Positions 5,672 to 18,472 of a stretch of 64,000 nt of DNA are shown one piece after another; positions within the stretch are counted from its first letter, which is position 1; each line of letters opens with the position of its first letter. Below the pieces are notes generated by a model. The model saw nothing but the letters and a program-made list of their open reading frames with translations, was not told the DNA's origin and did no database searches. The DNA comes from an uncultured Paracoccaceae bacterium (GTDB lineage: Bacteria; Pseudomonadota; Alphaproteobacteria; Rhodobacterales; Rhodobacteraceae). A program made the position numbers and the translations under genes. Location: NCBI GenBank assembly GCA_947495295.1, contig CANLYJ010000007.1:54989-118988 (forward strand). The letters are read 5' to 3'.

Positions 5672-6475
5672 ATGACAACATTTAACCTGATCCTGATCGC
5701 GCTGATCCAAGGTGTAACCGAATTTCTGCCGGTCTCCTCCTCTGGTCATCTGATATTGCTGCCCTCGCTTAGCGGTCTGGCCGATCAAGGGCAGATCATT
5801 GATGTGGCCGCCCATGTCGGCACATTGTTGGCCGTAATCCTCTATTTCCGGGCCGACGTCCGGCTGGCGTTTTTTGGGACATTGCGACTGATACGGGGCA
5901 AGATCGACACCCAAGGGGCATTCCTCGCCCTTTGCCTTCTGATCGCCACGATCCCGGTGATCCTGGTCGGGCTGATCCTGAAACTCACCGGCCTCTCGGA
6001 CGCCATGCGCGGCATCGCCGTAATCGGCTGGGCGATGATCATCTTTGGGGTCTTCCTTTACTGGGCTGATCAGAACGGGCCCATTGAAAAGACTGCCGAA
6101 AAATGGAGCTTGAAGGACGCCCTGCAAATGGGCCTCTGGCAGGCGGTCGCCCTGATCCCCGGCACATCACGGTCCGGCATCACCATCACCGCGGGGCGGA
6201 TGCTGGGCTATACCAGAACCGATGCAGCGCGGCTCTCCATGTTGATGTCGATCCCCACCATCATCGCCTCTGCGGCCTTGCTGGGATTGGATGTTATCGG
6301 CACCGCTGACGCATCAGATCTGCGCGATATCGGGATCGTCGTGGCAATGTCATTCGGCGCGGCCTTGCTGGCGCTGACCCTGATGATGCGACTGCTCAAG
6401 GCCGTCAGTTACACACCCTACGTGATCTATCGGATCGCGCTGGGCATCGTCCTGCTATGGATCGCCTATACCTAA
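5672..6475 (+). CDS. uppP: Undecaprenyl-diphosphatase UppP (BacA)
   Basis: Integral membrane phosphatase (267 residues, about eight hydrophobic segments) that converts undecaprenyl diphosphate to the monophosphate, recycling the lipid carrier for peptidoglycan and other envelope polymers. Family signatures are both present: QGVTEFLPVSSSGHL near the N terminus and the PGTSRSG loop near residue 168. Length is normal. It converges on the next gene, overlapping it by four bases at the stop codons. About 220 bases separate it from divergent gltD, enough for both promoters. Confidence 0.95.
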   Translation: MTTFNLILIALIQGVTEFLPVSSSGHLILLPSLSGLADQGQIIDVAAHVGTLLAVILYFRADVRLAFFGTLRLIRGKIDTQGAFLALCLLIATIPVILVGLILKLTGLSDAMRGIAVIGWAMIIFGVFLYWADQNGPIEKTAEKWSLKDALQMGLWQAVALIPGTSRSGITITAGRMLGYTRTDAARLSMLMSIPTIIASAALLGLDVIGTADASDLRDIGIVVAMSFGAALLALTLMMRLLKAVSYTPYVIYRIALGIVLLWIAYT

Positions 6476-10569: not shown

Positions 10570-11442
10570 TTGAGACGATTTGCCCGCCTTCCATCCCTCA
10601 TCGGCGCTTTGGCTGCATGTGCCTGTTTACTAGGCCCGCAAAGCGCCGTGGCCGAGGAAAAACCGATCTTTGATCAAGTGGTCGAGATTGTCGGGTCAGA
10701 GCGTGGTACCGTCCGTAAATGGATTTACGCACCCAAGGTGACTGTCATCCATGAGGGCGACCCACAACGCGATCAGATCAACAGCATTGTCGAAATGGTC
10801 AATGCCCGGATCCCCGACTTCCCGGGTGTTGGTGCCATCGAATTCTTTGATCTGTCCCAATATAATCGCCGCCTTGCAGGCAACACCCATTTCCGCATGC
10901 CTCGCGTCGAATTTGACGGGGTTGAAGGCAATATTGTCCGCGCCTTGTTCAAGGGCGAAGAAGAGGCGCAGAATATCGTGCTAACCGGCAGCATCTTCAT
11001 CTTTCTGACAGGTCTTGAGACGGGCATCACCCTTGGGGCACTGACGCAAAGCACCCAGTCGCTTAGCCGTCAGTTTGCCGAAGGTGCGCAGACGAAGTGT
11101 TATTTTCATCTGATGTCCAAGAATGACGAATTGCGCGCCGGGTTCATCTTTATCAACAACGAAGACGCGCATACGCCCATCGCTGAATGCCTATACGAGG
11201 AGTTCATGCAGACCCTTGGCCTGTTGAACGACTCGCGTGGGTCGTCGATCTTTACCTTTGACAATTCCGGCGACGTTCGTGCGGACCGCGCCCCTGATTT
11301 CCGCCTTTTGCAGGCGCTTTATGATCGTCAGGTCGCCGCTGGTGATGAGGCCGAAAAGGTCGCACAGCTTTATCTGGGGTTAGATGCCGCCTATCAACTT
11401 ACGGCTGCACCGTCAGATACTGCGGCGGCACCCGATCAGTAA
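10570..11442 (+). CDS. Secreted DUF2927-domain protein
   Basis: About 290 residues with a Sec signal peptide ending AVAEE. The body matches the DUF2927 family: paired Cys residues (TKCYFHLMS; AECLYEEFMQTLGLLND) and a conserved acidic segment resembling a metalloprotease-like fold. Function is uncharacterised; location is probably periplasmic. The start is ambiguous: TTG at 10570 has TTGGAGTGATTGCG upstream, whereas the track uses an earlier TTG (10552). Its 3' end overlaps convergent kptA by 44 bases. Confidence 0.8.
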   Translation: MRRFARLPSLIGALAACACLLGPQSAVAEEKPIFDQVVEIVGSERGTVRKWIYAPKVTVIHEGDPQRDQINSIVEMVNARIPDFPGVGAIEFFDLSQYNRRLAGNTHFRMPRVEFDGVEGNIVRALFKGEEEAQNIVLTGSIFIFLTGLETGITLGALTQSTQSLSRQFAEGAQTKCYFHLMSKNDELRAGFIFINNEDAHTPIAECLYEEFMQTLGLLNDSRGSSIFTFDNSGDVRADRAPDFRLLQALYDRQVAAGDEAEKVAQLYLGLDAAYQLTAAPSDTAAAPDQ

Positions 11443-11932
11443 GCCAGACACCGTTATCCGCCTGAAAGAACGCAAAACCGGCCTGGGACATGGTATGCGC
11501 ATCAACCTGCAATACCACAGGCTTGCCATGGCGCATCCCGACCTTGGTTGCGGTTGAGACATCCAATGACAGATGCACCTGTTGTCTGCGTCCCGGTTTC
11601 AGACCCTCATTCATGATTGCAGCGACGGATTTTTGCGCTGTGCCGTGAAACAGAGTTGCGGGTGGGTCTGCTGGGCTGAGCCCGAGGGCAATATCGACGG
11701 AATGTCCTTGCGCCGCCCTGATCCGGGTCTTGTCGTTGGACAGGGTGAACCGTTTCTTGTCTGAGGTGACAACGATCTGTTCCAATGTGGCCCGGTCGAT
11801 TTTCTGCCCGGCTTTGGCGCAGCCTGCCAACAGGTCGTCCACAGCCACCCAGCCTTGCGAATCCAGTGTTAGCCCCGCCTTTTCCGGTGCGTGTCTTAGG
11901 ACGAGGCTTAAAAACTTGCTTTGCTGTTTCAT
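11399..11932 (-). CDS. kptA: RNA 2'-phosphotransferase KptA/Tpt1
   Basis: 177-residue Tpt1 family enzyme, which transfers a 2'-phosphate from RNA to NAD+, giving ADP-ribose 1'',2''-cyclic phosphate. Characteristic motifs are in order: KFLSLVLRHAPEKAGL, QGWVAVDDLL, RIRAAQGHS, LFHGT and RQQVHLS, which hold the Arg-His-Arg-Arg active-site set. It follows rtcB by 18 bases with a good AAAAGGAACA site, so it is the last gene of the RNA-repair operon. Tpt1 normally cleans up yeast-type ligation junctions; RtcB leaves no 2'-phosphate, so its role here is unclear. rtcA is absent from the window. Confidence 0.93.
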   Translation of the reverse strand: MKQQSKFLSLVLRHAPEKAGLTLDSQGWVAVDDLLAGCAKAGQKIDRATLEQIVVTSDKKRFTLSNDKTRIRAAQGHSVDIALGLSPADPPATLFHGTAQKSVAAIMNEGLKPGRRQQVHLSLDVSTATKVGMRHGKPVVLQVDAHTMSQAGFAFFQADNGVWLTDRVPPQYLTVQP

Positions 11933-11950
11933 TGTTCCTTTTGGGGCGAC

Positions 11951-13363
11951 TTAGCGCCGCCCCTTCCTTTTCTTTTTGTCCATCCAGAATGGTGGAATGT
12001 CACCTGCCATCATGCAGCCATACGGATCGATGTAGTCTTCAATCTCGGCGAGGTTGAACTGGCCGATCTGGCGCACCACATTGGCCGCGTTTTTGTAGGA
12101 TGATGGCAACTCGGACGCATCGATCCCACCGGCGGGGAACCGGATATCAAGCCCCTTTGTCTCGGCCTCAAGCGCCTGTTGGGCTGTCATCTCGCCCAGC
12201 CGCCGCTTGTGTTCAGAGCGCGAGAAGTTGCGCCCCGCCCCATGTGGCGAGAAACCCAAGGCATGCTCTGCATCTTTCCCACGCACGACCAAAACGGGTT
12301 CGGACATGTTCAGCGGGATCAGTGTCAGACCCGTCGCATCAGCGGCATAATCACCCCAGGCCGGGGTCGCCCCCTTGCCGTGGTAATACAGATCGCCACG
12401 CCGGAAGACGAAGTTATGTTCATTCCAGAACCGGTCGCCCGGCTGCGCCTTTGACCCTTCAACGGTCGCCTGATGGATCGCGTTATGGTTCGCCTTCGTC
12501 CATTTACGGATAAGTTGCAGCGCCGCCCAATAGTCCTGACCGTCCTGCGTATCCGCCGGGATCCACGCGTTTTGCTTGAGCGTGTCTGGCGACAGCTTTC
12601 TGCGATGTCTTTCGGCTGCTTCCATGCCCAGCTTGTAAAGCACCGCCCCCGGCCCGCGAGAGCCGTGATGGGTGACAATCGCCGTCCGCCCGGTATTGCG
12701 GGACTTGCCCACAAACAGGAAATGGTTGCCGTCCCCCTGGGTGCCCAGATGCTCGACCGCCATGCGCAAAATCTTGGGATTGTTGAGGAACTTGTTTTCC
12801 CGGAACGCATCCATCAGATTTTGCGACATGGTGAACCGCTTGCCATTGGGCCGCCCGCCGGGGCCGAAATGCGTGACCTGTTCGGCAGCGTCCAACACCG
12901 CCTTTGGATCAGTCTCGCCCATATCGGTCATCATGACCGAACAACAGATATCCGCCGAATGCATGCCGGGATGGATCGCATTGCGGGCCGCAACAACACC
13001 GCCCACAGGGATGGTCCCCAACGGACCCGCCGGACAGGCATCGGGCATCACGGCCGCCGACACAACTGTCGGTGTGCGAATAACAGCCTTCATCGTCTCG
13101 CGCACATCGGCAAGGTTCTTGATCTCATCAGGATCGTCCGAGGCTTCGATATTGAAATGAAACGGCACATCGCCCGCCTTTTGCAACGGCAAAGTTGGCG
13201 GCGGTGGGGGTGGCTTCATACCCTCCAGCTTGGCCTTGATCTGGTCCATCTCATAGCCCGCAGCGGCAGCCGCCTGTGCGATTTCGAGGGCACGGCCAAA
13301 TTCCTTGCCGGGGGTATGGCCCCATTCCTTAAGCGTTTCACCGGTGATTTCTACTTGTGTCAT
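11951..13363 (-). CDS. rtcB: RNA-splicing ligase RtcB, divergent form
   Basis: 470-residue GTP/Mn-dependent ligase joining RNA 2',3'-cyclic-phosphate or 3'-phosphate ends to 5'-OH ends. Metal ligands equivalent to the canonical set are visible: Asp138/Cys141 in ADICCSV, His214 in GDGNHF, His233 in HHGSRG, His316 in EHNFV, and the guanylylated His374 in PHGAGRNFSR. Oddities: PDxHxGxG is replaced by PDACPAGPLG, the Glu of NHFxE is not kept (NHFLFV), and there is a proline run (PPPPPP) near residue 51. This marks a diverged branch. Its ATG lies three bases after the stop of the upstream small gene. It is co-oriented with rsr, the Y RNA array and kptA. Confidence 0.93.
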   Translation of the reverse strand: MTQVEITGETLKEWGHTPGKEFGRALEIAQAAAAAGYEMDQIKAKLEGMKPPPPPPTLPLQKAGDVPFHFNIEASDDPDEIKNLADVRETMKAVIRTPTVVSAAVMPDACPAGPLGTIPVGGVVAARNAIHPGMHSADICCSVMMTDMGETDPKAVLDAAEQVTHFGPGGRPNGKRFTMSQNLMDAFRENKFLNNPKILRMAVEHLGTQGDGNHFLFVGKSRNTGRTAIVTHHGSRGPGAVLYKLGMEAAERHRRKLSPDTLKQNAWIPADTQDGQDYWAALQLIRKWTKANHNAIHQATVEGSKAQPGDRFWNEHNFVFRRGDLYYHGKGATPAWGDYAADATGLTLIPLNMSEPVLVVRGKDAEHALGFSPHGAGRNFSRSEHKRRLGEMTAQQALEAETKGLDIRFPAGGIDASELPSSYKNAANVVRQIGQFNLAEIEDYIDPYGCMMAGDIPPFWMDKKKRKGRR

Positions 13364-13366
13364 TTT

Positions 13367-13783
13367 CTAGTCTTTCGTCACTTTCCAGTACGTCGCCTTC
13401 ATTACGGGCTCGAATAGGTGCCATTCATGGCAATCTGCGTGATGCCAACCGATATGTTTGCCGCAATGGCAGATACGATTGGGTTCACCACTGCCAGAAA
13501 TATCGCAACATCCGCTCAGCCGTTCCTGATGGGGTGTATAGCCGACCCAATCGCGCAGATCGTCCAAGTTGATCCACGCGTTGCTGCGCGGTTGCCAGCC
13601 TTTAGCGAAAGCCATGCGGATTTTTCGCACCTCACCTTCGATCAGCAAGTAACGACCTCGCGGTGTGACCGGTTTTTCAGGCGCAAAGACGCAGATTGCT
13701 TGCATTTCCGCCGCTGTTTTGATCGGAAAAATCGGAAAGGTCAGTTCTGTTTTACAGGTCGCGCATGTCAAAATCTGTTTCAT
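13367..13783 (-). CDS. Cys/His-rich small protein of the RNA-repair operon
   Basis: 138 residues, starting MKQILTCATCKTEL with GAGAGTGAATGAG upstream. An N-terminal CATC pair and a C-terminal ICHCGKHIGWHHADCHEW block suggest one or two zinc sites; no known family is recognised. The longer track ORF (to 13936) runs back into the structured RNA and is artefactual. The stop is three bases from the rtcB start, so the two are tightly coupled. It separates the Y RNA array from rtcB. A role in RNA binding or repair is inferred from position only. Confidence 0.72.
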   Translation of the reverse strand: MKQILTCATCKTELTFPIFPIKTAAEMQAICVFAPEKPVTPRGRYLLIEGEVRKIRMAFAKGWQPRSNAWINLDDLRDWVGYTPHQERLSGCCDISGSGEPNRICHCGKHIGWHHADCHEWHLFEPVMKATYWKVTKD

Positions 13784-13810: not shown

Positions 13811-13942
13811 CCGGAACAAGGTGTTTGCAGGATAATTTTCCGCCACCGGATTTCTCCGGGCTGGGGTCGAACCAGCACGGGCCTTTTGGCCCCGGCCCCC
13901 AGAGGGCCTGCGTCTACCTGTAATCCTGACAGGCATTTCCAG
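13811..13942 (-). ncRNA. Y RNA-like unit 8 with a permuted Leu/type II-like tRNA module
   Basis: Last unit of the array. The outer stem TCTGGAA pairs with TTCCGG(C), and the inner stem CAGGAT pairs with ATCCTG. Between them lie a long variable-arm-like hairpin (GGGGCC..AAAAGGCCC), a T arm GCTGGTTCGACCCCAGC, and an acceptor-like stem closed by a GNRA loop (CCGGA-GAAA-TCCGG). A D-arm-like start GTGGCGGAA follows. The order T arm, closed acceptor, D arm is a circular permutation of tRNA. It ends 27 bases before the small-protein start codon. Confidence 0.75.
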
Positions 13943-13950
13943 ATCATGGG

Positions 13951-14028
13951 TCCGGAGGACAAAGGTTTCGTGAGATGCCTTTCGGCGACCGTTTTAGAGC
14001 GATGTAATCCCACGGGCATTCCCCCGGA
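13951..14028 (-). ncRNA. Y RNA-like unit 7, no tRNA module
   Basis: Outer stem TCCGGGGGA pairs with TCCTCCGGA (one G-U), and inner stem GTGGGAT pairs with ATCTCAC (7 bp). The inner helix differs from the GGTGGAAC/GTTTCACC of most units on both strands, so pairing is preserved by compensating changes. The enclosed loop (about 30 bases) shows no T or D arm, making this a minimal unit. Confidence 0.7.
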
Positions 14029-14087
14029 TGTGTTTCCTTTCTGTCTTACAGAGGTTTGCAGGGCAGTGCCTGGACCTCAGGGTGGGT

Positions 14088-14151
14088 GCGAAGCGCCCTC
14101 CCCATGGGGGAGGTCCGGGCGCTGCCCGGCAATGCCGGGCGGGACATTCGC
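14088..14151 (-). ncRNA. Structured RNA between the tRNA-like gene and unit 7
   Basis: Minus-strand sequence folds as GCGAA..TTCGC enclosing a perfect hairpin GCCCGGC-ATT-GCCGGGC and a second arm GCGCCC..GGCGC capped by CTCCCC-CAT-GGGGAG, a probable three-way junction. It does not share the stem sequences of the Y units. The flanks (14029-14087 and 14152-14176) show nothing further. It could be a processing element, a terminator-like block or an independent RNA. Confidence 0.5.
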
Positions 14152-14176
14152 TCCACGCGCCACGCTCAAATTACCA

Positions 14177-14252
14177 TGGCTGGAAGAGCAGGGTTCGAAC
14201 CTGCGACCTGCGGTACCAAAAACCGTTGCTCTACCAGCTGAGCTACCTTCCA
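14177..14252 (-). tRNA. tRNA-Gln(UUG)-like gene inside the Y RNA array
   Basis: A normal-order, 76-base cloverleaf with encoded CCA. The acceptor TGGAAGG pairs with TCTTCCA (one G-U), with discriminator G. D arm is GCTC..GAGC; the anticodon arm ACGGT/ACCGC has one A-C mismatch at its base and loop TTTTGGT (anticodon TTG). T arm is GCAGGTTCGAACCCTGC. U1-A72, G73 and the anticodon are glutamine identity features, but the D/T body resembles other tRNAs. It begins five bases after unit 6. It may be a working accessory tRNA, a decoy or a precursor of the permuted modules. Confidence 0.75.
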
Positions 14253-14257
14253 ATGGC

Positions 14258-14319
14258 GGAGGACAAGGGTTCAGTGAGACGCTGACACTTTGGAGATGTA
14301 GTCCCACAGGCATTCCTCC
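14258..14319 (-). ncRNA. Y RNA-like unit 6, no tRNA module
   Basis: Minimal unit of 62 bases: outer stem GGAGGA pairs with TCCTCC and inner stem GTGGGAC pairs perfectly with GTCTCAC. The loop of about 20 bases (TACATCTCCAAAGTGTCAGC) has no tRNA arms. The inner stem deviates from other units on both strands while keeping complementarity. Directly followed by the tRNA-Gln-like gene. Confidence 0.7.
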
Positions 14320-14330
14320 TGCTTGATTTG

Positions 14331-14463
14331 CCCCGGCGACAAGTATCTGGCGAAACGTTACGCGCTCTATCCATCTGAGCTATCCCGTCATGGTAACGGG
14401 AGTGGGATTCGAACCCACGACCTCGACATTCGTAGTGTAGTTCCACCAAGGCATTCGCCAGGG
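14331..14463 (-). ncRNA. Y RNA-like unit 5 with permuted tRNA module
   Basis: Outer stem CCCTGGCGA/TCGCCGGGG (9 bp, one G-U) and inner stem GGTGGAAC/GTTTCGCC. Inside, in this order: TACG (pairs with CGTA at the far side, the anticodon-stem equivalent), T arm GTGGGTTCGAATCCCAC, acceptor-equivalent stem TCCCGT closed by TACCATG to ACGGGA, then D arm TAGCTCAGATGGATAGAGC. The acceptor ends are therefore fused into a hairpin and the molecule's ends leave at the anticodon side. This is the clearest permuted tRNA of the array. Confidence 0.82.
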
Positions 14464-14475
14464 CTGTTATTCGGG

Positions 14476-14595
14476 TCCGGCAACAAAGTGGGGCGAAACA
14501 TGTATACTGCTCTACCAACTGAGCTACCCGGTGAAGTGACCTCCGGGGCGGGGCTCGAACCCGCGACCAATGTAGTTCCACCAGCATTTGCCGGA
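14476..14595 (-). ncRNA. Y RNA-like unit 4 with permuted tRNA module
   Basis: Outer stem TCCGGCAA/TTGCCGGA (8 bp) and inner stem GGTGGAAC/GTTTCGCC. The enclosed module has T arm GCGGGTTCGAGCCCCGC, an acceptor-equivalent stem CCCGG/CCGGG closed by AGGTCACTTCA, and D arm TAGCTCAGTTGGTAGAGCA, in permuted order. Same architecture as unit 5 with different stem sequences. Confidence 0.8.
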
Positions 14596-14604
14596 ATGTT
14601 CGGG

Positions 14605-14751
14605 TCTGGCGACAAAGGGAAAGAAACGTTTTGGGGCCCCGCCCCCATTTCCGCAGAAATGGTTTTCCGTCTGGGCGTCTTCGCTAGAGGGGAGTTGAAC
14701 CCTCGGGTGATCCCGGTTTGGTGCGATGTAGTTCCTTTGGCATTCGCCAGA
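14605..14751 (-). ncRNA. Y RNA-like unit 3 with a degenerate module
   Basis: Outer stem TCTGGCGA/TCGCCAGA (8 bp) and inner stem AAAGGAAC/GTTTCTTT. The AAA/TTT change occurs on both strands and is the strongest single covariation in the array. Inside are a T-arm-like hairpin GAGGGTTCAACTCCCCTC, a short closed stem GCG-AAGA-CGC, and an extra hairpin CCATTTC-TGCG-GAAATGG instead of a recognisable D arm. Probably a decayed or repurposed tRNA module. Confidence 0.72.
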
Positions 14752-14760
14752 ATATCTGGT

Positions 14761-14898
14761 CTTGGCAACAAGGTTTTGATGAAACATTGGGGAGGTGCTC
14801 TTCCAACTGAGCTACATCGCTCCGGTTGTCCCGGCTGTGATGGCGGGGTTCGAACCCGCGACATCATCCGTGATGTAGTTCCACCGGCATTTGCCAAG
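14761..14898 (-). ncRNA. Y RNA-like unit 2 with permuted tRNA module
   Basis: Outer stem CTTGGCAA/TTGCCAAG (8 bp) and inner stem GGTGGAAC/GTTTCATC. The module runs GGATG (anticodon-stem 3' strand, pairs with CCTCC except one base), T arm GCGGGTTCGAACCCCGC, and acceptor-equivalent CATCAC..GCGATG extended by CCGG-GACAA-CCGG. D arm TAGCTCAGTTGGAAGAGCA and the CCTCC strand follow. The anticodon stem resembles valine-type tRNAs, but no anticodon is reconstituted. Confidence 0.8.
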
Positions 14899-14914
14899 GT
14901 GTTTGTTTGTCGGT

Positions 14915-15010
14915 CCCGGCGACAATCGGGGGTGAAACATCAACATGCGCGTATTCTGCCAGCAAAACCGCCATCACGTTCCCTATGTAGTTCCACCAGC
15001 ATTCGCCGGG
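14915..15010 (-). ncRNA. Y RNA-like unit 1, divergent module
   Basis: Outer stem CCCGGCGA/TCGCCGGG (8 bp perfect) and inner stem GGTGGAAC/GTTTCACC (8 bp, one G-U). The roughly 50-base insert (GATGGCGG..GCTGGCAGAATACGCGC) looks like a type II tRNA D-arm half without a T arm. It may be a partial module. It is the first full unit after rsr. Confidence 0.7.
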
Positions 15011-15148: not shown

Positions 15149-16705
15149 TTAAATGTCGGTTGCCTCGATTTGGCCGACCCAGTGATCTGGTCCCATCTCG
15201 CCTGCCGCGAAGGCTGCGATCTGGTCAAAGACCGTGTCCGAGAACCCGCCAATGTTCAGAACATCGTCGCGTTCTTTCGCCTGGGTCGTCCCGTATGGGG
15301 CGATGTCGATGCAGACCAGTTTGGCCTTTGGGTTCCGCCTTTTCAGCTTCTCCCACGCTTGCATCATAACCGTCCCGGCGTTGCCGTACTGGTTATGCGC
15401 CCAGGACTGGTTGTCCGAGACGATGATCACCAGATCCGGGGCACGCCCCTTGGCCAGCAACCAATCCAGCGGTGCCGCGCAATTGGTCCCGCCGCCCCAC
15501 TGATCCGCCAAACGTGCTGCGTTTGTCAGGATCGTGTCGCGTGGTTCCAGCCGCACATCGCGCACCTTCACCTCGAACGGCAGGACCGTCGCGGATGGGT
15601 TACGCCGCAGCACAGCCGCAGAGACAAGCCCCGCCACATCCACGAACCGCGTCGCTGTGGTGGCCCCCTTACGGTAGCCTGTTACAGCGCCGGACATGGA
15701 CCCGGATACATCCGGGGCAACCACAACCTGACCGCGCAGCTTTGGCACGTTGCGCACCGAAAGCTCCATCGCGTCATGCAATGCGTCCCTGATCTCGGCC
15801 GGCATGTCCGAAGACATGGCCTGATAGGCCGTCATCAGCTGATACGGGAACACCCGTGCCTTTGCGATCAGCGCCGGATCACGCAAACGATCCGCAATCA
15901 TGCACCGCATTTTCGGCAGGGCCAGAACCCCGTGCCGCAGGAACGTGTTCAGGTTCATACGGGTCATCTGCCAAGATGCGTTCTCAGCAATCTTTGCCCA
16001 CTGTTTCGTAGACAATTCAAGCTGCGTCAGCATCTGGAACGGAACGTTTGGCACGCGGCCACGGCCCGTTTTCTTGAACCGCAGGAAATCCTGCACATTA
16101 TCCGGCAGCAATGCGACGTCACATGGCTTCCTGATGATCCACGCAAACAGCGCGTCTCGCGCCTTCGAGGAAGGCTTCGGGTGGACCATCTTGATCACAT
16201 CCGCCAGCGACGGGTCGTTACCCACATTCGCCTGCAGGATCGCCCGGTCGGACGCCTCATTCAGCCAATTGGCAACCAGCCGCTTTGGCGCAGAGCCAAG
16301 CGATTTCCGCCCCGTCTGCCCCGACCGCATGATCTGCACAAAGGTGCGCAGCATCTTGCCGTTATCCACAACACGCCCAACGACGCGCTGGAACAGGATC
16401 GGGTCACGGGCCGACAGAACCGCCAGCAACAGGGCGGGCATATCTTTCATATGGCCCTCTTGCCGGGTGTAGACCGCCGCCTTTGCAAGAAAGGACGGAT
16501 CAACCTTTTGCGCCAATTCCAGCGTGCGGGACAGTTCCTGCATCGGGTCCTGGTAGAATGTCTGCCCAAACGTGCCGGTCATCGCCAGCTGCGCCAAGGC
16601 ATGCGCATCGGAATAGGTATAGGCCGGTGCCCCCGCCAGATTCGTAGCAGAAGCTGCCGGAAGCAACCGGCCTTTCATCGATGCAAACACAGATTTGTTT
16701 GCCAT
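15149..16705 (-). CDS. rsr: Rsr, bacterial Ro60 orthologue (TROVE domain protein)
   Basis: 518-residue ring-shaped RNA-binding protein. The HEAT-like TROVE domain covers roughly residues 15-320. A von Willebrand A domain follows, with the MIDAS motif DVSGSMSG near 332 and a later IIVSDNQSW strand. Ro60/Rsr proteins bind Y RNAs on their outer surface and RNA ends in the central hole; in Deinococcus a Y RNA tethers Rsr to PNPase. The start ATG has AAGGACGAGAGTGAA upstream. It is the first gene of the RNA-repair operon and lies directly before the Y RNA array, its expected ligand. Confidence 0.95.
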   Translation of the reverse strand: MANKSVFASMKGRLLPAASATNLAGAPAYTYSDAHALAQLAMTGTFGQTFYQDPMQELSRTLELAQKVDPSFLAKAAVYTRQEGHMKDMPALLLAVLSARDPILFQRVVGRVVDNGKMLRTFVQIMRSGQTGRKSLGSAPKRLVANWLNEASDRAILQANVGNDPSLADVIKMVHPKPSSKARDALFAWIIRKPCDVALLPDNVQDFLRFKKTGRGRVPNVPFQMLTQLELSTKQWAKIAENASWQMTRMNLNTFLRHGVLALPKMRCMIADRLRDPALIAKARVFPYQLMTAYQAMSSDMPAEIRDALHDAMELSVRNVPKLRGQVVVAPDVSGSMSGAVTGYRKGATTATRFVDVAGLVSAAVLRRNPSATVLPFEVKVRDVRLEPRDTILTNAARLADQWGGGTNCAAPLDWLLAKGRAPDLVIIVSDNQSWAHNQYGNAGTVMMQAWEKLKRRNPKAKLVCIDIAPYGTTQAKERDDVLNIGGFSDTVFDQIAAFAAGEMGPDHWVGQIEATDI

Positions 16706-16850
16706 TTCACTCTCGTCCTTCTTCGTTTCAGTGATGCTGTTTTCGTGGATTTTGAGGGTTGGACGAAGAAAAATCGCATTCGCTTTAAGTCGCTGTTTTT
16801 ATTAGAGTATTTTTGGCAAAACGATAATGACTACAGAATTTACGATTTAC

Positions 16851-16870
16851 ACGGATATTACTTTATCCGT
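16851..16870. promoter_or_regulatory. Inverted repeat in the rsr-rtcR intergenic region
   Basis: ACGGATA-TTACTT-TATCCGT is a perfect 7 bp inverted repeat with a 6-base spacer, ending just upstream of rtcR in the 177-base divergent region. It is a candidate operator for RtcR or another regulator. I found no GG-N10-GC (-24/-12) sigma-54 element on the rsr side. Confidence 0.5.
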
Positions 16871-16882
16871 ATGGATAATCTT

Positions 16883-18472
16883 ATGAAGAAGAATGTTGTC
16901 ATCGGCTTTCTGGGGACGAATCTGGACGCGGGCAAGCGCCGCCGCTGGCGTCCCTCTGTGCAGATCAATGATCATCCTGATTTTCCTATTACGCGACTGG
17001 AATTGCTGCATGATCGGCGCTGGACGGGGCTTGCCACGAAAATCAAAGGCGAGGTTGAACGCGCCCATCCCGAAACCGAGGTCCTGCTGCACGAGGTCAA
17101 CGTCCACGACCCGTGGGATTTTGAGGAGATGTATGGCGCGATGTTCGATTTCGCCCGTGATTATGGTTTTGATGATGAGCGGGAGGAATACCACGTTCAT
17201 CTGACCACCGGCACACATGTTGCGCAAATCTGCTGGTTCCTGCTAACCGAGGCGCGCCATATCCCGGCCAAACTGGTTCAGACCGGCCCGCCGCGCGGTG
17301 AGGATACCGGCCCCGGCACCTTGCAGATCGTTGATCTTGATCTGTCGCGCTACAATGCCCTGCAACAACGGTTTGATCTGGTTTCCAAGGAATATAACGC
17401 CCTGTTGAAGGGCGGGATCGACACCAAGAACGCAGCCTTTAACGCGATGATTGACCGGATGGAGGTCGTGACCTCCAATTCAGACGCGCCGCTGTTGTTG
17501 ATAGGGCCGACCGGGACGGGGAAATCGGATCTTGCCGCGCGCTTGTATGAATTGAAGCTGCAACGCCGTCGCATCAAGGGCCGTTTGGTCCATGTGAATT
17601 GTTCGACGCTGAAGGGCGAGCGGGCCATGTCGACCCTATTTGGCCACCGCAGACAATCTATCCGTGGCGCAGGGTCCGACCGGCGCGGCCTGCTGCAAGA
17701 GGCTGATGGCGGTGTCCTGTTTCTGGACGAGATTGACGAGCTGGGTCTGGATGAACAGGCGATGATCCTGCACGCGGTTGAGACGGGCAAATACCTGCCA
17801 CTTGGGTCGGATTACGAGGTGACCAGCCGGTTTCATCTGATCGCGGGGGCGGGGCGTGATCTGGCGGCTTTGGTGGCCAAGGGCCAGTTTCGCGCCGACC
17901 TGTTTGCCCGGCTGAACCTATGGACATTCCACCTACCCGCTTTGCGTGACCGACCCGAGGATATCGACCCGAATATCGCCTATGAACTGGCACGGGTAGA
18001 AAAACTGTTGGGGCAACGGCTCAGCTTTAATGCCGATGCATTCACCCGCTATCAACGTTTTGCCACAGATCCGGGCACTGATTGGTCAGGCAATTTTCGT
18101 GACCTGTCCGCATCTGTCCAACGCATGTGTACCCTTGCCCCGCGGGGACGGATTACATTGGCTATGGTCGAGGATGAAATTGCCACGTTGCGCAGCACAT
18201 GGCGCGACGCGACCCGCGACCCGGATTTGCAGCTATTGCAGGCGCATCTGGGTGCGGCTGCACAGGACATCGACATCTTTGATCGGGTCCAATTGGCCGC
18301 TGTTATTCGGATTTGCCAGAAAAGCGCGAGCCTGAGCGCTGCGGGTCGGACGTTATTCGCGGCTTCGCGCGCGGCCAGGGCCAGCCGGAACGATGCCGAC
18401 CGGCTGCGCAAGTATCTGGATAAATTCGGTCTTGATTGGGCGCAATGTCAGGCAGATGCCGCTTCAGGGTAG
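16883..18472 (+). CDS. rtcR: RtcR-type CARF-AAA+ regulator lacking the GAFTGA motif
   Basis: About 529 residues from MKKNVVIGFLGT, aligning with the RtcR N terminus; the track ORF (15119) is a run-through across rsr. The CARF domain (about 1-175, HLTTGTHVAQICWFL) senses RNA, reported as tRNA halves or cyclic-phosphate ends in Salmonella. The AAA+ domain has Walker A GPTGTGKS (208-215) and Walker B GVLFLDEI. The C-terminal domain keeps SLSAAGR and NDADRLRKYL. Odd: where E. coli has LFGHVKGAFTGA this protein reads LFGHRRQSIRGA, so the sigma-54 contact loop is lost. ATG 16871 is an alternative start. Divergent from rsr. Confidence 0.9.
   Translation: MKKNVVIGFLGTNLDAGKRRRWRPSVQINDHPDFPITRLELLHDRRWTGLATKIKGEVERAHPETEVLLHEVNVHDPWDFEEMYGAMFDFARDYGFDDEREEYHVHLTTGTHVAQICWFLLTEARHIPAKLVQTGPPRGEDTGPGTLQIVDLDLSRYNALQQRFDLVSKEYNALLKGGIDTKNAAFNAMIDRMEVVTSNSDAPLLLIGPTGTGKSDLAARLYELKLQRRRIKGRLVHVNCSTLKGERAMSTLFGHRRQSIRGAGSDRRGLLQEADGGVLFLDEIDELGLDEQAMILHAVETGKYLPLGSDYEVTSRFHLIAGAGRDLAALVAKGQFRADLFARLNLWTFHLPALRDRPEDIDPNIAYELARVEKLLGQRLSFNADAFTRYQRFATDPGTDWSGNFRDLSASVQRMCTLAPRGRITLAMVEDEIATLRSTWRDATRDPDLQLLQAHLGAAAQDIDIFDRVQLAAVIRICQKSASLSAAGRTLFAASRAARASRNDADRLRKYLDKFGLDWAQCQADAASG

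Follow-up and report, generated by a model that had tools for sequence, protein, structure and literature searches.

A 64,000-nucleotide stretch (the window) of the 4.27-Mb genome of an uncultured Paracoccaceae bacterium carries an RNA-repair operon that is controlled by RtcR and belongs to the rsr-Y RNA-rtcB type. In it, kptA, a gene for a predicted RNA 2'-phosphotransferase, adjoins the RNA ligase gene rtcB. The operon shares the core of the Salmonella system and is a variant of it that appears to be new. We classed it as a variant and not as a plain member because rtcA and a sigma-54-type RtcR were both looked for and neither was found. Its tail is a tight unit of three minus-strand genes, encoding a Cys/His-rich protein, RtcB, and KptA, with gaps of 3 and 18 nucleotides, and rsr and the Y RNAs are placed between rtcR and rtcB. 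The initial annotation had described this unit (positions 11399 to 13783) as an RNA-repair operon without rtcA, headed by an unrecognized protein. Profiles, coordinates, and a genome search bear out that description, although it missed the Y RNA array, the tRNA, and the divergent rtcR of the same locus. In our leading reading, to which we assign a probability of roughly 45%, KptA would heal 2'-phosphate ends within the RtcR-controlled operon. Labels beginning with G and L denote the genomes and loci of our survey, G000 being the window's own genome.

The KptA protein (177 amino acids) matched PF01885 (E = 1e-50) and scored above the cut-off of the NCBIfam equivalog NF002014. It aligned over its full length to solved bacterial Tpt1/KptA enzymes (7kw8 and 6e3a) and keeps the HGT motif and the Arg-His-Arg-Arg tetrad described for Tpt1 (PMC6333775), represented by R13, H14, R61, R115 or R116, and H96. 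The family match and the catalytic tetrad are common to those enzymes and the window protein, whereas here the gene lies inside an RtcR repair operon. Bacterial KptA has no established substrate, that of Escherichia coli included, and why bacteria retain it has long been a puzzle (PMC6333775). That kptA recurs in a repair operon induced by tRNA damage, in a lineage without RtcA, makes the purpose of KptA testable by single-gene deletion.

In a sample of 198 genomes spanning the family Rhodobacteraceae, 13 had an RtcR above the cut-off, as did 8 of 56 genomes of the genus. The initial annotation had asked whether kptA is linked to rsr or rtcB anywhere else, and it is: kptA adjoins rtcB on the same strand in six of the eight rtcR operons of the genus, downstream of it in G000, G239, G244, G245, and G247 and upstream in G246, and in G171, which belongs to another genus, a broken copy of kptA is found immediately upstream of rtcB. 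Within the genus, KptA was found in seven of the eight genomes with rtcR versus 4 of the 48 without (one-sided Fisher test, 1e-5; uncorrected for kinship and indicative only). In the remaining Rhodobacteraceae operons, kptA is absent or located elsewhere in the genome. The linkage is no accident, yet kptA is a genus-level accessory. A possible, if doubtful, explanation is that kptA is a mobile passenger, inserted next to rtcB and kept there without any functional link. Indeed, kptA occurs at scattered, unrelated loci in the genus (L103 to L108) and also on plasmids and in jumbo phages; where it sits in the operon varies between species, and it has decayed in G171. A passenger would not be expected to keep the same neighbor and strand in six of eight operons with gaps of a few tens of nucleotides or less, nor to co-occur with RtcR. 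The operon kptA genes are also under purifying selection, the nonsynonymous substitution rate (dN) being well below the synonymous rate (dS), and their products cluster on the tree, with 2 label changes compared to 5.7 when labels were shuffled. Despite that clustering, a single origin of the operon KptA proteins is not proven. On an Acidovorax plasmid (L096), the neighbors of kptA are ADP-ribosylglycohydrolase, NUDIX, and HAD genes, which is a different context, of the ADP-ribose type.

The rtcR-rsr-Y RNA-rtcB layout is conserved across the family. No RtcA (PF01137) is encoded beside rtcB or anywhere else in the window's genome, and none was found in the 20 Rhodobacteraceae rtcR genomes tested. 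In alphaproteobacterial loci from outside the family (L081 to L087; two of them were examined with Pfam, and the rest were read by the RtcA signature), rtcA directly follows rtcB. Across other alphaproteobacterial operons, the slot after rtcB holds rtcA, hen1-pnkp, or nothing, with hen1 found there in G116 (rtcB-hen1) and G440 (rtcB-rtcA-hen1-pnkp). Since the contents of the slot vary among rtcA, hen1/pnkp, and kptA, we regard kptA as one of several alternative end-processing partners, here in a lineage lacking RtcA. Hen1-Pnkp repair shares the slot after rtcB but has a different chemistry and is not part of the window's operon. Going by the title of a 2013 paper from Das and Shuman that PMC7790460 cites, RtcA is reportedly also able to cyclize 2'-phosphate ends. 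The G440 locus (L082) combines rtcR, rsr, Y RNAs, a divergent rtcB, rtcA, hen1, and pnkp, two RNA-repair systems in one operon; the G116 locus (L068) is a Rhodobacteraceae rsr operon with hen1 directly after rtcB.

The window's operon and the Salmonella rsr-yrlBA-rtcBA operon with its RtcR (PMC7790460) have in common a divergent rtcR and the same order of rsr, Y RNAs, and rtcB. The window's operon differs in having no rtcA, in the addition of kptA and the Cys/His protein, in its divergent RtcB, in an array of eight Y RNAs that includes a tRNA, and in an RtcR without GAFTGA and without a sigma-54 promoter consensus. Full-text literature searches turned up no such operon with kptA or tRNA genes, and an earlier mention cannot be excluded.

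The leading reading builds on the gene content, gene order, conservation, RtcA absence, recurrent kptA linkage, and tRNA/Y RNA array observed here, and it takes the RtcR ligand, the RtcB chemistry, the Rsr-PNPase link, and the end requirement of PNPase from the literature. Fragments of tRNA with 2',3'-cyclic phosphate ends activate RtcR, and phosphate ends need enzymatic conversion to 3'-OH before degradation by PNPase (PMC7790460). We infer the roles of KptA, the Cys/His protein, and the tRNA as follows. The kptA gene, joined in some species by that for the small Cys/His protein, would take the slot held by rtcA in other alphaproteobacteria. RtcB would rejoin RNA halves with cyclic-phosphate and 5'-OH ends, and KptA, at the cost of NAD+, would strip terminal or internal 2'-phosphates from RNAs that neither RtcB nor exonucleases can use. 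Rsr and the Y RNAs would steer unmendable RNA to PNPase, which requires a 3'-OH, and the array tRNA would supply a fresh copy of the tRNA species lost to cleavage.

Several observations weigh against this reading. Two operons of the genus and all 12 examined from other Rhodobacteraceae genera have no intact linked kptA. In the closest relative, G245 (L075; kptA at positions 5786 to 6316), the NAD-contacting HGT of KptA is changed to RGT, so KptA may be dispensable there. The known targets of Tpt1 are internal 2'-phosphates, and its action on terminal ones is a proposal. The usual maker of 2'-phosphate ends is ThpR, a known 2',3'-cyclic phosphodiesterase. The ThpR family was absent from the window genome and from every other KptA-operon genome, other 2H families not having been searched. 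This absence weakens the standard proposal that a 2H phosphoesterase opens 2',3'-cyclic phosphates to 2'-phosphates that KptA then clears (PMC9503650). ThpR was present in five Rhodobacteraceae operon genomes without kptA and was rejected as the supplier of the KptA substrate; the source of 2'-phosphate is therefore not the best-known one.

That the ThpR search turned up no 2'-phosphate maker also fits a different activity, in which KptA would be an RNA ADP-ribosyltransferase acting on 5'-phosphate or other phosphate ends and would mark or cap fragments instead of removing 2'-phosphates. Tpt1/KptA enzymes do act in vitro on RNA with a 5'-phosphate, which they modify (PMC11833690 and work cited there). 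We consider this unlikely, as damage of the type mended by RtcB yields 5'-OH and not 5'-phosphate, the complete 2'-phosphotransferase tetrad is retained, and Pfam analysis of the operon genes revealed no ADP-ribosylhydrolase.

The RtcB protein (470 amino acids) is a divergent one. It matched PF01139 (E = 1.9e-34) and scored 79 bits against an equivalog cut-off of 407 bits. It shares only about 27% identity with canonical RtcB from neighboring families and is extended by additional stretches at the N and C termini. Such divergence, and the fact that every linked kptA adjoins this RtcB subfamily, would be expected if the ligase left or tolerated a 2'-phosphate that KptA then removed from the ligated RNA, as happens when fungal tRNAs are spliced. 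That seems improbable, given that the metal- and GMP-binding residues (C141, H214, H232, H316, and H374) are those of canonical RtcB and that most operons encoding this RtcB lack a nearby kptA. On Rhizobium plasmids, rsr and Y RNAs accompany the same divergent RtcB, and neither rtcA nor kptA is annotated nearby. The statement of the initial annotation that RtcB ligation leaves no 2'-phosphate agrees with canonical RtcB chemistry in the literature. Its further argument, that KptA must serve another end chemistry, was reasonable but too strongly put, with internal 2'-phosphates, ADP-ribosylation of 5'-phosphates, and an unusual RtcB product as alternatives. On a plasmid of Shinella sp. HZN7 (L099), a second rtcB followed by prfH comes directly after the rsr-rtcB operon.

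The open reading frame upstream of rtcB encodes a 138-amino-acid protein with its ATG at position 13783. It had been called unrecognized, and it had no match in Pfam, NCBIfam, or the PDB. It is a real gene: three congeners have an ortholog in the corresponding position (91% and 42 to 43% identity), and the dN/dS ratio relative to the closest ortholog is about 0.19. The protein is confined to four operons of the genus, always encoded directly upstream of rtcB, and a class-wide profile search found it in the window's genome alone. It is a probable zinc binder, and its residues C7, C10, C31, C92, C93, C105, C107, C118, H110, and H122 are invariant. The ortholog from G244 gave a weak match to phrog_24064, a family of unknown function (E = 1e-5). 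Two groups of apparent relatives were rejected: Bacteroidetes matches (L072 and L073) proved to be AtpB with a chance ADCHEWHLF stretch, and those on Priestia and Mesobacillus plasmids were weak (25 to 31% identity) and lay away from RNA-repair genes. The operon of G245 (L075), besides its altered KptA, has neither the Cys/His gene nor an array tRNA.

The regulator scored 707 bits with NF038308 (cut-off, 650) and has CARF and AAA+ domains. The window RtcR keeps Walker A and B and has RRQSIRGA at the position of GAFTGA. The GAFTGA motif, which contacts sigma-54, is missing in all aligned Rhodobacteraceae RtcR proteins (window and L059 to L080) and in two from other families (L081 and L085), and it is kept in L082 to L084 and L086 to L090. 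The gap between rsr and rtcR (16706 to 16882) contains no -24/-12 consensus (TGGCAC-N5-TTGC) when up to two mismatches are allowed, and scans for sigma-70 promoters and terminators yielded nothing above chance. A TATC-N6-GATA-type palindrome lies at the start of rtcR in nearly all of the 20 aligned rtcR-rsr intergenic regions. On the basis of these sequences, activation by RtcR appears to be sigma-54 independent, and the regulator has possibly been switched to another sigma factor, the ATPase motifs being retained in the window copy. If so, the same damage signal would be wired to a different form of RNA polymerase.

Table 1. Features of the RNA-repair locus, with positions in the window
Feature	Position	Strand	Basis or remark
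rtcR, CARF-AAA+ regulator, divergent from operon	16883..18472	+	PF06956 E=8.6e-72; NF038308; PADLOC RtcR--CARF_AAA_HTH
Palindrome TTATCCATACGGATAA	16863..16878	-	Adjoins rtcR start; putative RtcR operator
rsr (Ro60/TROVE-vWA protein)	15149..16705	-	PF25045 E=3e-16; PF05731 E=1e-7; NF041674 below cut-off
Y RNA 1	14914..15009	-	RF02553 38.0 bits; Y motif and stem fold
Y RNA 2, tRNA-like T-arm and D-arm module	14760..14897	-	RF02553 55.9 bits; motif, fold
Y RNA 3	14607..14749	-	Y 5' motif 14727-14743; RF02553 just 18.1 bits, E=0.81; fold z-score -0.55
Y RNA 4, tRNA-like module	14474..14594	-	RF02553 84.1 bits, above gathering score of 69
Y RNA 5, tRNA-like module	14330..14461	-	RF02553 66.9 bits; fold z-score -2.2
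Y RNA 6 (short)	14255..14321	-	RF02553 25.4 bits, E=0.069; motif
tRNA-Gln(UUG), CCA encoded	14177..14252	-	ARAGORN; RF00005 61.6 bits
Y RNA 7 (short)	13950..14027	-	Motif, stem fold, same element in congeners; no Rfam match
Y RNA 8 (divergent)	13811..13945	-	Motif; fold z-score -1.9; no Rfam match
Cys/His-rich protein, 138 aa, probable zinc binder	13367..13783	-	Conserved directly upstream of rtcB in four operons of the genus
rtcB, divergent-subfamily RNA ligase	11951..13363	-	PF01139; active-site residues kept
kptA/tpt1, RNA 2'-phosphotransferase (predicted)	11399..11932	-	PF01885; NF002014; solved relative 7kw8 E=5.6e-53

Eight tandem Y RNAs (13811 to 15009) lie between rsr and the Cys/His gene (Table 1). 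With RF02553, one exceeded the gathering score, another fell just short of it, and three gave weaker matches; the remaining three were identified from their motif, fold, and position. On the operon strand, eight copies of the Y RNA 5' motif lie within about 1.1 kb, versus 0.08 expected in 64 kb. On folding, the third is the weakest of the eight. A tRNA-Gln(UUG) gene sits between the sixth and seventh. It was rejected as the sole tRNA-Gln(UUG) of the genome, a second, different gene being present at G000:C1:148540.

Such tRNA genes recur. At least one lies between rsr and rtcB in 13 of the 18 Rsr-containing Rhodobacteraceae operons (window positions 14177 to 14252; L059, L062, L063, L065, L066, L069, L070, L074, L076 to L078, and L080), always on the operon strand, with about 0.2 expected from tRNA density. 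The 21 genes specify Gln(UUG) (8), Asn(GUU) (6), Pro(UGG or CGG) (6), and Lys(UUU) (1). Eight Rsr operons outside the family contained no clear tRNA, with one doubtful 70-nucleotide Ala call in L084, and the two Rhodobacteraceae operons without Rsr had neither Y RNAs nor tRNAs. By alignment, the operon tRNAs are closer to each other across genera than to the housekeeping isoacceptors of the window genome, and position 37 of the Pro tRNAs is A in operon copies and G in housekeeping copies. The operon tRNAs thus have the look of a set that is old and specific to the operon instead of recently copied, and they may replace damaged tRNAs. If they do, the presence of tRNA genes in such an operon would couple repair to replacement.

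A broader and tentative picture is an operon that would mend, clear, and replace. One RtcR-triggered transcript would supply a ligase, KptA as end-healer instead of RtcA, Rsr with Y RNAs as adaptors or tRNA decoys, and spare tRNAs of the attacked isoacceptors (Gln, Asn, Pro, and Lys), with RtcR working on a form of polymerase without sigma-54. The nearest published parallel that we found is the Anabaena TrcR regulon, which comprises the trn operon of 26 tRNA genes and rtcB (PMC10272220). There, too, extra tRNA genes and rtcB are under common stress control; the regulator is a different one, the tRNAs and rtcB are at separate loci, and Rsr and Y RNA are unmentioned.

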